Part shown: positions 1,594-51,689 of the stretch, one piece after another | Position numbering within the stretch: the first letter of the stretch is position 1 | How the letters are laid out: each line of letters opens with the position of its first letter | Assembly (NCBI RefSeq): GCF_014773225.1 | Contig: NZ_JACXAJ010000013.1 | Coordinates: forward strand, 1 to 64,000 | Source of the DNA: Pontibacter aquaedesilientis | GTDB lineage: Bacteria > Bacteroidota > Bacteroidia > Cytophagales > Hymenobacteraceae | Length of the DNA: 64,000 bases | Direction: 5' to 3' | Notes under the pieces: generated by a model | The model's database searches: none | What the model saw: the letters and a program-made list of their open reading frames with translations, nothing else | What the model was told of the DNA's origin: nothing | Position numbers and translations under genes: made by a program

Positions 1594-1636
1594 TAAGTTG
1601 AGGAGTTTGAGAGTTTGGGAGTTAGAGAGTTAAGAA
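1594..1636. repeat. Dispersed GTTGAGGAGTTTGAGAG-type repeat
   Basis: Purine-rich degenerate units of the type AGTTGAGGAGTTTGAGAG, GGGAGTTAGAGAGTT follow the DUF4476 stop. Related units occur at 28842-28868, 38801-38838 and 38928-38985, so this is a dispersed intergenic family. Confidence 0.5.
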
Positions 1637-18891: not shown

Positions 18892-18959
18892 CCAAATCAC
18901 ATTTTCTTGGAGATACCTTTAAGGACTAGGCCGCCTGTCGACTCAAACAGGTTAAGGCA

Positions 18960-19001
18960 GGTATAGGTATAGGTATAGGTATAGGTATAGGTGTAGGTAT
19001 A
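18960..19001. repeat. GGTATA hexamer tandem repeat
   Basis: Seven consecutive 6-bp units of GGTATA, one of them altered to GGTGTA, form a microsatellite between coaE and tRNA-Val. The unit is the same word that is dispersed throughout the window. Slippage could vary the copy number, but no promoter or frame is obviously controlled by it. Confidence 0.85.
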
Positions 19002-19104
19002 GCGGATTATACCAGACCGTAAGCTGAAGCGTTAGCTTATAAACTACTGTGCAATTAAGGTCGTGAGAAAGGGCAGATGGGAAGCCAGCCAGAAAAGTAT
19101 GGAC

Positions 19105-28834: not shown

Positions 28835-28883
28835 TTTCAGTTGGGAAGTTAGAAAGTTTGTAAGTTGACAGGTATAACAGTAG

Positions 28884-28911
28884 GGACAGGTCGCGGCCTG
28901 TCCGCCTTTTT
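28884..28911 (+). terminator. Terminator of the histidine kinase gene
   Basis: GGACAGG pairs perfectly with CCTGTCC around TCGCGG, then GCCTTTTTG. A fragment of the AGTTAGAAAGTT repeat family lies just upstream (28842-28868). Confidence 0.7.
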
Positions 28912-37897: not shown

Positions 37898-38752
37898 CTA
37901 TCTGGCTCTATTCACAATAAACACCCCGGCCAGAATAATGACCATGCCCACATAGTGCCACAATTGGATAACCTCACCGTCCAGCACCCCCCACATGAGC
38001 GCCACGACAGGTATAAGGTATGTCGAAGAGCTGGCGAATAGCGTAGTGCTCATGTGAATAAGCTTGTTGAACAGTACCAGCCCAACGGCCGTGCTGAAAA
38101 TGGCCAGTATGGCAATGTACATAAACGCTTCCCAGGCACCGGGCGTGCTTTGCAGCTTTGGCACCACATCTGTCGTGAACATATAGGCGATTGCCAGCGG
38201 CCCAACTGTGAGCAGCGCCATGCTTGACATCACCAGCGGCTTCATGCCCTGCAACCGGTGCTTGATGATGTTCACGCTGCCACCGTAGCAGATTGTGGCG
38301 ATGACGATGTAGATACCATAAAAGGTGTTGTCCAGGCTGGTGTCACTACCCGAGAAGATAAGGATGGCCGTGCCTACTATACCGATGATAATGCCTAGCA
38401 TGCGCATCCAGGTAATGGCCTGTTGGAAGAAGATGGCTCCAACCAGCAAAGTAAAGAGGGCCGTCAGTGAGTTGAGTACCCCCGCCAGACCGCTGGCCAG
38501 CTGCGTCTCAGCGTAGGCGAAGAGGAAAGCCGGGAACAAATTGCCCAGCAAGCCACTGCCCAGCAGGTATTTCCAACGGTGCGGCTCTACCTGTCGGATA
38601 TGTTTAATAGCAAAAGGAGACAAAGTCAGGAAAGCGATGGCAATCCGGATAGCTCCCAGTTCGTTGGAGCTGAACACGACCAGGCCCTTTTTGATCAGGA
38701 TAAAAGACGTGCCCCAGATCAGGGCCAGTATGATAAGCAGGAACCAGGCCAG
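37898..38752 (-). CDS. EamA/DMT superfamily transporter with no standard start codon
   Basis: The protein has the ten-helix DMT layout in two EamA repeats. The longest frame with a standard start is a GTG at 38677 (259 residues), but that loses the first helix. In-frame codons upstream encode it: LAWFLLIILALIWGTSFILIKKGLV, residues just before VFSSNELGAIRIA. The frame is then open to a stop at 38804-38806 without any ATG, GTG or TTG. The natural start IKTSLAPAPEK would follow a codon that reads CTT where an ATG is expected, at the edge of a repeat (38801-38838). I give the CTG at 38752 as a provisional start. It may be a pseudogene. Confidence 0.7.
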   Translation of the reverse strand: MAWFLLIILALIWGTSFILIKKGLVVFSSNELGAIRIAIAFLTLSPFAIKHIRQVEPHRWKYLLGSGLLGNLFPAFLFAYAETQLASGLAGVLNSLTALFTLLVGAIFFQQAITWMRMLGIIIGIVGTAILIFSGSDTSLDNTFYGIYIVIATICYGGSVNIIKHRLQGMKPLVMSSMALLTVGPLAIAYMFTTDVVPKLQSTPGAWEAFMYIAILAIFSTAVGLVLFNKLIHMSTTLFASSSTYLIPVVALMWGVLDGEVIQLWHYVGMVIILAGVFIVNRAR

Positions 38753-38800
38753 TGGCGGGGTACCTGTTTTCTCCGGTGCGGGTGCGAGAGAGGTTTTGAT

Positions 38801-38956
38801 AAGTTAGAAAGTTTAGAAGTTAGAAAGTTAGAAAGTTGTCTCGGATGATGGACGACCTCCCAACTAAGATGCAAATATAAAAGGAGTTGAAGTCTCAACA
38901 TGCATGCTGAACCCTCAACTCCCTTAAAACTTTCTAACTTCTAAACTTTCTAACTT
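38801..38956. repeat. 29-bp inverted repeat around a short spacer
   Basis: The 29 bases at 38801-38829 are the exact reverse complement of 38928-38956. The arms are made of AGTTAGAAAGTTTAGA-type units that also occur at 1594 and 28842. Inside them lies a second small hairpin (GGAGTTGA 38883-38890, TCAACTCC 38915-38922). The left arm abuts the missing start of the EamA gene, and the right arm runs to the end of dusB. It resembles a small non-autonomous repeat element, but no target-site duplication is evident. Confidence 0.75.
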
Positions 38957-38965
38957 CTAAACTTT

Positions 38966-39967
38966 CTAACTATCTAACTCCTCAACTTCATACGCCATGG
39001 TCTGGGCGATCTCGTCCAGCGTGTCGTAGATCTCCTGAATGTCTTCGGACTGCACCAGTTTCATGCGCAGCGGCTTAAAGTGCGGCAGGCCCCGGAAATA
39101 GTTGGTGTAGTGGCGGCGCATCTCGAAGATGCCCAGTTTGTCGCCTTTCCACTCCAGCGAGTGCGTGAAGTGCTGGCGGCAAACCTCTACACGTTCTTCC
39201 AGAGTTGGCGGTGCCAGCATTTCGCCGGTTGCCATGTAGTGTTTGATCTCGTTGAAGATCCATGGGTGGCCAATGGAGGCGCGGCCAATCATGATGCCGT
39301 CTACGCCATACCTGTTTTTATATTCCAGTGCTTTCTGCGGAGAATCGATATCACCGTTCCCGAAGATCGGGATTTGCATGCGCGGGTTGTTCTTCACCTC
39401 GGCAATCAGGGTCCAGTCGGCTTCGCCTTTGTACATCTGCACACGGGTGCGGCCATGTATGCTCAACGCCTTTATACCAATGTCCTGCAGTCTTTCGGCG
39501 GTTTCTACAATAAATTTGGTGTCTTCGTCCCAGCCCAGTCGCGTCTTCACCGTCACGGGCAGATGCGTGGCTTTCACGATTTCCTCAGTCATCTTCACCA
39601 TCTTAGGAATGTCGCGCAGCAATGCGGCGCCGGCACCCTTGCAGGCCACGTTCTTTACAGGGCAGCCGTAGTTGATGTCGATCAGGTCGGGGCCGGCCTG
39701 CGACGACACGATGGCGGCTTCGCGCATCGAGTCGATGTCCGAGCCGAAAATCTGAATACCGATGGGGCGCTCGTAGTCAAAAATGTCGAGTTTCTGCACA
39801 CTTTTGGCGGCGTCACGTATCAGACCCTCAGAAGAGATGAACTCGGTGTACATCAGGTCTGCGCCGTTGGCCTTGCACACTTTTCGGAAGGGCGGATCGC
39901 TCACATCCTCCATCGGTGCCAGCAGCAGCGGGAAATCGCCCAGTTCTATGTTCGCTATCTTTACCAA
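38966..39967 (-). CDS. dusB: tRNA-dihydrouridine synthase B
   Basis: DusB uses FMN to reduce uridine in the tRNA D-loop. The 333-residue protein has LLLAPMEDVSDPPFRKVC at the N-terminus, the catalytic Cys102 in INYGCPVKNVACKGAGAALL, the SIHGRTRVQMYKG motif and IMIGRASIGHPWIF in the FMN site. The length is normal. The last codons (EVEELDS and the stop) are spelled by the AGTTGAGGAGTTAGATAG repeat family. The gene is divergent from the CPBP protease gene, with an ACGT palindrome between. Confidence 0.95.
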   Translation of the reverse strand: MVKIANIELGDFPLLLAPMEDVSDPPFRKVCKANGADLMYTEFISSEGLIRDAAKSVQKLDIFDYERPIGIQIFGSDIDSMREAAIVSSQAGPDLIDINYGCPVKNVACKGAGAALLRDIPKMVKMTEEIVKATHLPVTVKTRLGWDEDTKFIVETAERLQDIGIKALSIHGRTRVQMYKGEADWTLIAEVKNNPRMQIPIFGNGDIDSPQKALEYKNRYGVDGIMIGRASIGHPWIFNEIKHYMATGEMLAPPTLEERVEVCRQHFTHSLEWKGDKLGIFEMRRHYTNYFRGLPHFKPLRMKLVQSEDIQEIYDTLDEIAQTMAYEVEELDS

Positions 39968-49607: not shown

Positions 49608-50657
49608 ATGAACCTATTGATCACCGGCGGGGCCGGCTTCATCGGCTCGCACGTGGTGCGGCTATTCGTGGAGACTTACCCGCAATACAACATCTTCAAC
49701 CTCGACGCGCTCACCTACGCGGGCAACTTGCAGAACCTGCGGGACGTGGAGGACCGGGAGAACTATACCTTTTTGAAGGGCGACATCACCGACGCTGGTT
49801 ATCTGGAGCAGATCTTCCAAGAGCATAAGTTTGAGGCGGTGATCCACCTGGCGGCCGAGTCGCACGTGGACCGCTCGATCTCCGGGCCCATGGCCTTCGT
49901 TCAGACCAACGTGATCGGCACGGTCAACCTGCTGGAGGCCTGCCGCCGCGCCTGGGCTGGTCAGTATGAGGGCAGGCTATTCTACCACGTCTCCACCGAC
50001 GAGGTGTACGGCTCGCTGGGTGCCGAGGGCCTGTTCACCGAGCAGACGGCCTACGACCCGCGCTCGCCCTACTCGGCCTCCAAGGCCGCCTCGGACCACT
50101 TCGTGCGGGCCTGGCACCACACCTACGGGCTGCCCGTCAAGCTCAGCAACTGCTCCAACAACTACGGCCCCAACCACTTCCCCGAGAAGCTCATCCCGCT
50201 GTCCATCCACAACATCAAGACCGGCAAGCCCGTGCCCGTGTACGGCAAGGGCGAGAACGTGCGCGACTGGCTCTATGTGCTGGACCACGCCCGGGCCATC
50301 GACGCCATCTTCCACAGCGGCAAGGTGGGCGAGACCTACAACGTGGGCGGGGTGAACGAGTGGCGCAATATCGACCTCATCGAGCTGCTCTGCGATGTGA
50401 TGGACGAGAAGCTGGGAAGGGAGGCGGGCAGCAGCCGCAAGCTCATCGCCTTCGTCCAGGACCGCCCCGGCCACGACGCCCGCTACGCCATCGACTCCTC
50501 CAAATTGATGAACGAGCTGGGCTGGAAACCCTCGGTCACCTTCGAGGAGGGGCTCAGAAGGACCGTGGACTGGTACCTGGAGAACGGAGCCTGGCTGGAG
50601 TTGGTGACAAGCGGCCACTACCGCGACTATTACCGCAAGCAGTACGAGCAACGATGA
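49608..50657 (+). CDS. rfbB: dTDP-glucose 4,6-dehydratase
   Basis: RfbB makes dTDP-4-keto-6-deoxyglucose for deoxysugars of surface polysaccharide. The 349-residue SDR protein has GGAGFIGSHVVR, the catalytic STDEVYG segment (about 128-134) and the YxxxK in SPYSASKAASDHF (about 160). The family motif SNCSNNYGPNHFPEKLIPL follows. Third codon positions between about 49960 and 50340 are almost all G or C, quite unlike galE just upstream, and the AGGTATA word is nearly absent. This suggests recent transfer. The matching rfbC and rfbD genes are not in this window. Confidence 0.94.
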   Translation: MNLLITGGAGFIGSHVVRLFVETYPQYNIFNLDALTYAGNLQNLRDVEDRENYTFLKGDITDAGYLEQIFQEHKFEAVIHLAAESHVDRSISGPMAFVQTNVIGTVNLLEACRRAWAGQYEGRLFYHVSTDEVYGSLGAEGLFTEQTAYDPRSPYSASKAASDHFVRAWHHTYGLPVKLSNCSNNYGPNHFPEKLIPLSIHNIKTGKPVPVYGKGENVRDWLYVLDHARAIDAIFHSGKVGETYNVGGVNEWRNIDLIELLCDVMDEKLGREAGSSRKLIAFVQDRPGHDARYAIDSSKLMNELGWKPSVTFEEGLRRTVDWYLENGAWLELVTSGHYRDYYRKQYEQR

Positions 50658-50813
50658 TGTCGTTATCCGTTGATAGTTACCCGTTGTTTGTGTGACTTGC
50701 CTATAGTGTAGGGAGCAAACCGGCAACAGCCTGGTAACGATCAGCGGTCAACGATTTGCCGATGACGATCGAGGAATAACGAGCAACAAGTAACGCATAA
50801 CGATCAACGAAAT
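50658..50813. repeat. Spacer of inverted TAACGATCAACGA-type repeats between rfbB and rfbA
   Basis: The left part (50660-50692) has CGTTATCCGTTGATAGTTACCCGTTG, and the right part (50760-50810) has degenerate inverse units such as AACGAGCAACAAGTAACGC and AACGATCAACGAA. The two sides could fold together. No ORF of note is present, and the spacing is unusual for genes that are otherwise coupled. Confidence 0.5.
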
Positions 50814-51689
50814 ATGAAAGGCATCATCCTGGCCGGGGGCTCCGGCACCCGGCTGCACCCCCTGACACTGGCTGTGAGCAAGCAGCTCATGCCCGTCTAC
50901 GACAAGCCTATGATCTACTACCCGCTCTCCACGCTGCTGCTGGCCGGCATCCGGGAGGTGCTGATCATCTCCACGCCCCACGACCTGCCACTGTTCGAGC
51001 GGCTGCTGGGGGACGGCTCCCGTATCGGCTGCCGCTTTGAGTATAAGGTGCAGGAAGAGCCCAACGGGCTGGCGCAGGCCTTCGTGATCGGGGAGGAATT
51101 CATCGGGGGCGACAAGGTGGCGCTCGTGCTGGGCGACAACATCTTCTACGGCTCGGGTATGGGGGCGGTGCTGCGAGAGAACGCCGACCCCGAGGGCGGG
51201 GTGGTGTACGCCTACCACGTCACAGACCCGGAGCGCTACGGGGTGGTGGAGTTCGACGAGAGCGGAAAGGCCGTCTCCATCGAGGAGAAGCCCCAGAAGC
51301 CCAAGTCCAACTACGCCGTGCCGGGTTTGTACTTCTACGACAACGAGGTCGTAAGCATTGCCAAAAACCTGGAGCCGAGCGCAAGGGGGGAGTACGAGAT
51401 CACGGACGTGAACCGCGAGTACCTCAGAAGAGGCAAGCTGAAGGTGGGCGTGCTCAACCGGGGCACGGCCTGGCTCGACACGGGCACGGTCCAGTCGCTG
51501 ATGCAGGCGGCCACGTTCGTGCAGGTGATCGAGGAGCGGCAGGGCCTTAAGATCGGCTGCATCGAGGAGGTGGCCTGGCGCATGGGATTCATCACAGACG
51601 AGCAGCTGCGCCAAATAGCAGAGCCCCTCAGAAAGAGTGGATATGGCGAGTACCTGCTCCGCATCATGAAAGAAAAAACTTATCGGTAA
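50814..51689 (+). CDS. rfbA: Glucose-1-phosphate thymidylyltransferase
   Basis: RfbA forms dTDP-glucose from glucose-1-phosphate and dTTP, the step before RfbB. The 291-residue protein has the nucleotide site [13 protein letters not shown], the [17 protein letters not shown] signature, [16 protein letters not shown] and GTAWLDTGT. Codon use is as GC-rich as that of rfbB, so the two probably arrived together despite the repeat-filled spacer. A terminator follows. Confidence 0.95.

Follow-up and report, generated by a model that had tools for sequence, protein, structure and literature searches.

Short intergenic inverted repeats present in many copies are known as REP/REPIN elements with RAYT transposases. 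BrickBuilt, a MITE of Porphyromonas gingivalis, has a minisatellite of 23-nt repeats flanked by a leader, a tail and terminal inverted repeats (PMC4596501). Closest in print to the repeats described here are the direct repeats of the heptamer TAACTGA in Beggiatoaceae, Cyanobacteria and five Bacteroidetes, for which the mechanism is given as unknown (MacGregor 2015, PMC4679880). In the parts of that paper drawn on here, the arrays mostly read forward toward a start codon located within a few nucleotides, some lie reversed past a stop codon, stop codons occur in all frames in one orientation and the distribution is patchy; related heptamers are rare as repeats, and one indirect repeat stands beside 169 direct sets. 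Long simple sequence repeats and phase-variation microsatellites, also tandem arrays of short units, are mentioned in the same source (PMC4679880). A search of open-access literature for repeats of Pontibacter and Hymenobacter found none, and nothing closer than PMC4679880.

The Pontibacter repeats are like the TAACTGA arrays in being short tandem AAC-containing units beside genes. The published unit, in the same parts of that paper, is one fixed heptamer that mostly faces starts (PMC4679880); the Pontibacter units are octamers with a fixed AACT and four free spacer letters, which lie mainly at stop borders and often form pairs that face outward. A unit directed at a start codon a few nucleotides downstream is found in a minority (22 of 70 tracts, 12 of them within 10 nt). 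Unit length, free spacers, preference for stop borders and outward-facing pairs thus set the Pontibacter tracts apart. Unlike microsatellites, they have mostly non-identical adjacent units, are polar and lie at gene borders. BrickBuilt resembles them in combining tandem with inverted repeats in a Bacteroidota genome, but as described it is one element with terminal inverted repeats (PMC4596501), whereas in Pontibacter the octamer tracts themselves are the arms and the interiors are unrelated.

The window, as we call the whole stretch of 64,000 nt analysed here, contains an inverted repeat between an EamA-type transporter gene and dusB. The following features were identified at this locus.

37898..38677, minus strand: open reading frame of an EamA-type transporter (name from the sequence-only reading that preceded this analysis), called from GTG, with its frame open up to the tract
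38801..38837, minus strand: octamer tract AACTTTCT/AACTTCTA on the EamA side; AACT reads toward EamA, and the outer end abuts a conserved ATC/ATT codon at 38800-38798
38880..38927, minus strand: terminator-like hairpin with a T-rich tail, read by eye; ancestral, outside the repeat, and shared by near relatives whether or not they have clear tracts
38928..38989, plus strand: octamer tract on the dusB side; AACT reads toward the dusB stop, and the tract overlaps the last dusB codons
38966..39967, minus strand: dusB, tRNA-dihydrouridine synthase (name from the same reading), with a stop codon supplied by the tract

The sequence-only reading had described perfect 29-bp arms around about 98 bp with an inner hairpin, and both parts of this description were confirmed. 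The arms at 38801-38829 and 38928-38956 are fully complementary with 98 bp between them; the hairpin is present at about 38880-38927, a position not listed by a simple terminator scan. Imperfect longer arms exist at the same locus as well, among them arms of 36 nt (92%) and of 34 nt (94%). The predicted RNA fold of 38781-38990 has -71.5 kcal/mol, whereas 200 shuffles gave -39.3 +/- 4.4 (z = -7.3). Both 29-nt arms turned out to be parts of tandem tracts with period 8, one at 38801-38837 (4.6 copies of 8 bp) and one at 38928-38989 (starting at about 38927/38928), so that the repeat, which had been thought to end at 38968, actually runs on to 38989. The sequence AACTTTCTAAC, with at most one mismatch, has 10 matches in the window against 0.95 expected, a number reached in none of 100 shuffles. 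Units of the same family had been noticed near 1594 and 28842; they were found there, with these precise spans:

1596..1631, minus strand: octamer tract 3 nt past the stop of the upstream open reading frame, followed by a terminator-like hairpin (by eye)
28839..28866, minus strand: octamer tract 4 nt past the stop of the upstream open reading frame, with a tract at the orthologous border in two relatives (G015 and G047)

An Rfam search of the window returned one tRNA and nothing else at the gathering score.

The dusB-EamA spacer of near relatives holds the same terminator-like hairpin, and in one of them (G011) the spacer has one unit only (stop, GAGTTAGAACTC, then hairpin); the centre therefore predates the arms, which are tracts in their own right. 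No tract was seen by eye after the dusB stop in Rufibacter, Sabulibacter and P. arcticus. The EamA/dusB inverted repeat consists of two separate border tracts, each facing outward from one intergenic region. The inverted repeat and the long hairpin are by-products of tract polarity and of a vocabulary of units common to the tracts.

The repeat had also been said to reshape both gene ends. For dusB this holds: its last codons, GAA GTT GAG GAG TTA GAT AGT TAG, are built of octamers as had been noted, the stop lies inside the tract, and C-termini vary between species (EVEELDS*, EEV*, AELES*). The EamA frame 37898-38800 contains no ATG, GTG or TTG before 38677, and 124 nt separate the tract from the called GTG start; in relatives, a conserved ATC/ATT codon (CTTATCAAAAC-like) directly adjoins the EamA-side tract. 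This codon, at 38800-38798, may well be the start of EamA, possibly a non-standard one; taking it as such, we infer that the tract has not destroyed the gene.

Each unit is composed of AACT and four letters chosen from A, C and T (no G), repeated with a period of 8 nt. Since tract detection requires AACT and no G, the scarcity of G is partly built in. In 338 units of 65 strict tracts from the genome of the window (G000), the most frequent spacers were TTCT (124), TCCA (36), TCTA (29) and CCTA (22), at sites fetched only where the exact core AACTTTCTAACTT, which itself contains TTCT, occurs. Tracts have 3 to about 11 units; most are 20-60 nt long and a few reach 70-84 nt.

Searching the genome for further copies, as the sequence-only reading had proposed, revealed a dispersed repeat: the core has 100 matches in 4.12 Mb and the reversed pattern has 0. 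Among named dusB sequences the best match is that of P. ramchanderi (99%), in keeping with a Pontibacter genome. A single copy per genome, or a terminator conserved in all relatives, had been named as outcomes that would speak against such a repeat; the copies are many, and they do not occur in all relatives. The core is present in 48 of 50 Pontibacter genomes (several with a single match). Of all 99 genomes searched, G000 among them, 60 contain it; beyond the genus the count is 0 or 1, except in a genus of the same family (g3), where three of three genomes have 7-9 matches. A looser three-unit pattern is present in 49 of 50 Pontibacter genomes, and match numbers range from 0 to 539; the tracts are therefore dispensable. 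Species differ in how much they use the core, although the matches counted overlap and lack independence: core and three-unit matches number 100 and 283 in G000, and 3 and 101 in G047. GC content is similar, 0.505 in the G047 block and 0.516 in the window. One genome (G035) has 94 forward versus 7 reverse core matches, perhaps one long array; most other genomes are balanced. Unselected DNA, a small sample of five syntenic blocks (about 360 kb), yielded 13 tracts, with 0 in the reversed text. A four-unit pattern matched 35 of 395 genomes across the phylum, G000 among them; the matches listed were mostly single loci or AACTAACT runs. As one genome from another family of the phylum (G349) has 19 + 27 scattered matches of four AACT octamers (control 0), and so forms a second tract-rich lineage, the tracts are not confined to Pontibacter.

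Pontibacter tracts mostly flank a gene directly, in the commonest case by overlapping its stop codon or touching it, and almost all of them read AACT toward the gene. Among 70 tracts of the genome and the window, 47 point at a stop codon, 22 at a start and 1 lies inside an ORF. Forty-three of the 47 overlap the stop or begin at most 4 nt from it; the other four are 34, 165, 197 and 480 nt off. A greedy ORF caller underlies these positions, and where an ORF runs into a tract it tends to end there. Tracts favour stop over start borders (47 vs 22, expected share 0.51, p = 0.005), with no enrichment of convergent gene pairs (20 of 47, expected share 0.44, p = 0.88). At distances up to 600 bp, neighbouring tracts formed 20 '-+', 0 '+-', 2 '++' and 0 '--' pairs. 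A slightly different scan of the sites of the same genome (n = 61) placed 54 tracts nearer to the gene in front than to the gene behind and 1 inside a gene, with 6 breaking the rule as scored; in the unselected blocks, AACT octamers obeyed it in 10 cases and violated it in 0.

Genome G030 served as an independent check, with sites taken by the skeleton pattern alone. The first 30 of its 115 matches gave 20 tracts, 17 at stops (all but one of them within 5 nt, the exception at 450 nt) and 3 at starts; by distance to the genes in front and behind, 17 obeyed the rule and 3 broke it. A tract near 947917, bordered in one frame by a stop codon, was lost to the no-G filter. Among the G030 matches listed, 7 '-+' pairs and no '+-' pair within 600 bp were counted by eye. 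Stretches of 30 nt without C mark just 6 of 160 unselected 3' ends, each of them a tract; border tracts thus do not reflect a general base skew.

When arrays detected by TRF were scored by G-free/C-free polarity, 66 of those with AACT or AGTT obeyed and 4 violated; for all others the numbers were 9 and 6. Octamers without AACT obeyed the border rule in 5 cases and violated it in 7. Units of 7 nt with the AAC skeleton numbered 11 in unselected DNA versus 16 in reversed text, and 14 versus 6 at the sites of the same genome; the arrays themselves probably contaminate the reversed text (AACAATC read backwards once more has AAC every 7 nt), so that this control proves nothing either way. The window has a second border pair, at 50655-50816, in which heptamers AACGANN face a stop codon on one side and a start codon on the other:

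50662..50692, minus strand: heptamer tract (AACGANN-like) 4 nt past a stop codon, a possible relative of the octamer tracts
50778..50808, plus strand: heptamer tract (AACGANN-like) in inverted orientation, 5 nt before the ATG at 50814 (by eye)

The automatic scan measured 974 nt from the second of these to a different border and counted it as breaking the rule. By eye, neighbouring heptamer tracts among the matches listed formed 10 '-+' and 0 '+-' pairs, in a scan whose controls have the same flaw as the reversed text. Together with the 50662-50808 pair, these counts weakly suggest that the border rule extends to heptamers.

Two other repeats were noticed in the window. The 7-mer AGGTATA (TATACCT) occurs 115 times in the 64 kb versus 4.4 expected under a first-order Markov model (a second count gave 111), and 91-163 times per block in each of four relatives (G015, G011, G047 and G005). 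Within genes it is found on both strands and in all frames at 1.1-1.6 per kb, and between genes it is denser, at 2.2-4.3 per kb; in about half of cases C precedes or G follows. In these respects it resembles signals of the HIP1, Chi or uptake type. The same motif forms a tandem array of the hexamer AGGTAT (7.3 copies) at 18959-19002. A palindrome family, GGACAGGTCGCGACCTGTCC, has a copy at 28884-28903 and 23 sites in the genome at up to 2 mismatches (reversed control 0); some copies adjoin octamer tracts (e.g. at L048 and L057).

The window is collinear with these four relatives and about 81-83% identical to them (about 17-19% diverged) over aligned DNA. G015 has tracts at the borders that correspond to 1596, 28839 and 38801-38989, and G047 has them at most of these; the syntenic block of G005 has one tract, at the EamA side, and none was found in the block of G011. 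After the tract that follows 1592 (window 1631-1635), G015 and G047 hold about 7.4-7.5 kb extra between the flanking genes.

A comparison of occupied and empty sites, suggested by the sequence-only reading, covered the three window sites and 15 further sites of the genome; a border was considered occupied if it had at least 24 consecutive letters without C, two AGTT units among them. Occupied orthologous borders, with different spacers, made up 10 of 16 in G015 and 11 of 17 in G047. Site L036 was excluded, as its G047 match is not orthologous; its G015 match is orthologous and has a tract-like end. Clearly empty are L069, L037 and L034 in both relatives and L045 and L041 in G047; two 'empty' borders of G015 are doubtful, L052, where a C interrupts a visible tract, and L041, which has an array of a different unit. 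Both kinds of border thus exist among relatives: many tracts occupy the same borders in related species, and others are present in one species and absent in the next.

Core and spacers have had different fates at these borders. After an AGTT anchor, the next unit agrees at 0.73 of AGTT positions versus 0.40 of spacer positions (82 anchors at 33 borders of G015 and G047, located by orthology with G000 sites). Units following the anchors have C at 14 of 656 letters, and successive AGTT are 8 nt apart in 40 of 61 cases; AGTT was counted 82 times against 11.9 expected, in runs accepted for holding two AGTT. The match probability of spacer units is 0.057 between loci within a genome, 0.057 between loci of different genomes and 0.096 for the same locus in G015 and G047. 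It follows that the spacers have nearly turned over and the phased tetranucleotide persists. An apparent signal of concerted evolution within genomes (p = 0.0005) was an artefact of choosing G000 sites via AACTTTCT; retests gave p = 0.22 without the AACTTTCT unit and p = 0.47 for G015 and G047 alone.

We infer a reader of these sites because the phased core is retained (0.73 vs 0.40). The phased AACT (AGTT in the outgoing transcript) would be a functional row of sites for a putative factor at gene ends, an explanation that we consider plausible, if just short of probable. Such a factor would be a multi-domain or ring-shaped nucleic-acid-binding protein acting where the transcript of a gene ends or begins. 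Copy number would shift via tandem duplication and loss, and growth of a tract would halt at the gene, where further coding DNA would be impassable; on the stop side the tract itself would supply the stop codons. Speaking against a reader, the tracts are dispensable, convergent gene pairs are not enriched, no reader protein was found, and since tract orientation is opposite at starts and stops, a reader of single-stranded RNA would see a different sequence at each. Hfq was rejected as the agent, with matches in 0 of 50 genomes of the genus.

Neutral tandem duplication is the main rival, though in our judgement an unlikely one. Unit-like gene ends (..AGT TAG, ..GAA GTT TAG) would expand by slippage and be tolerated only beside genes, as elsewhere they would destroy promoters or terminators. 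Gene ends that have no tract do hold unit-like seeds (..GGAGTTAGAAG in G047 at L034, ..AAGTTAA in G015 at L065), and the patchy occupancy of borders fits this scheme. In G000, identical units two apart are enriched against within-tract shuffles (0.188 vs 0.136, p = 0.011), not against across-tract shuffles (0.164, p = 0.17). A slippage array of simple sequence would show an excess of identical neighbours, but adjacent identical units are depleted (0.103 vs 0.163 in across-tract shuffles, p = 0.001; 0.135 in within-tract shuffles, p = 0.027), the reverse of single-unit slippage, which speaks against this process as the whole story. Neutral decay, moreover, would erode AGTT and spacers equally, and local seeding leaves unexplained the single octamer vocabulary across loci and the tracts that precede starts.

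The RNA reading into the gene is G-poor and unstructured, with regularly spaced C, like a Rho utilisation site; a tract could thus be a Rho-loading insulator stopping transcripts that enter the gene from outside. Judged by this RNA, polarity is indeed the same at starts and stops. Rho, as described in the part of the literature used here, prefers unstructured, C-rich, G-poor RNA with spaced cytosines, 70-80 nt long with C every 11-13 nt (PMC6407284). Most tracts, at 20-60 nt, are shorter than that, although some are 70-84 nt long, and their units repeat every 8 nt. A factor reading composition would not keep AACT itself, and the absence of enrichment at convergent pairs, for which insulation of convergent genes was rejected, also counts against this improbable reading.

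The sequence-only reading had proposed one small mobile or self-copying element, of MITE or REPIN type, which now appears very unlikely. Copies are dispersed in the genome, occupied and empty borders coexist among relatives as expected of a MITE, and three-unit strings common to different tracts exceed the shuffles (102 vs 53 within-tract, p = 0.001, and 68 across-tract, p = 0.04). The interiors, however, which a MITE would share, are unrelated: for 20 pairs of tracts in the genome, with interiors of 1-436 nt, the 19 of at least 20 nt gave 1 match (19 nt, E <= 0.01) in 171 comparisons. The centre of the EamA/dusB locus is ancestral, 30 of 70 tracts lack a partner at the detection limit, placement at gene borders is precise and tracts are inherited in place between species. 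Like REPINs, the tracts produce short intergenic inverted repeats in many copies, but they have no fixed ends that we could see and are independent of Y1 genes: seven genomes that have no match to the Y1 transposase (PF01797) carry 14-106 three-unit matches, and Y1 and tract counts are not significantly correlated over 50 genomes (Spearman 0.20, p = 0.16). Reverse transcriptase (RVT_1) had no match in 26 of 50 genomes, including the tract-rich G039, G020, G037, G046 and G030. Both enzymes were rejected as agents, as genomes lacking a match to the one or to the other are still rich in tracts.

A selected RNA hairpin of the two arms (a processing or 3'-end stabilising stem) is just as improbable: the predicted fold at the EamA/dusB locus is strong, but arms of one locus align no better than permuted arms (22.65 vs 23.28, p = 0.85, 20 pairs), so that neither selection for a hairpin nor arm-to-arm copying shows, and 30 of 70 tracts have no detected partner, some partners being perhaps too degenerate for the scan. 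Bidirectional intrinsic terminators likewise form an inverted repeat between gene ends; here the arms flank a distinct terminator-like hairpin. They are themselves rich in A and T, are followed by no T tract, and also precede starts.

Returning to phased sites for a gene-border factor, a wider version may be considered, although we find it rather doubtful. Tandem units of 7-8 nt, phased by AAC and facing genes, would be gene-border marks across Bacteroidota and perhaps also in Cyanobacteria and Beggiatoaceae, quickly rewritten with the core kept, and read by a putative factor at starts and stops alike.

For Pontibacter, the arrays alter protein C-termini and annotated gene ends. A place and direction that follow gene borders, together with a core that outlives its spacers, point to a putative sequence-reading step at gene ends, in a genus with no detected Hfq (0 of 50 genomes). 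The range of 0 to 539 matches within one genus provides a natural comparison series in which a reader may be sought.
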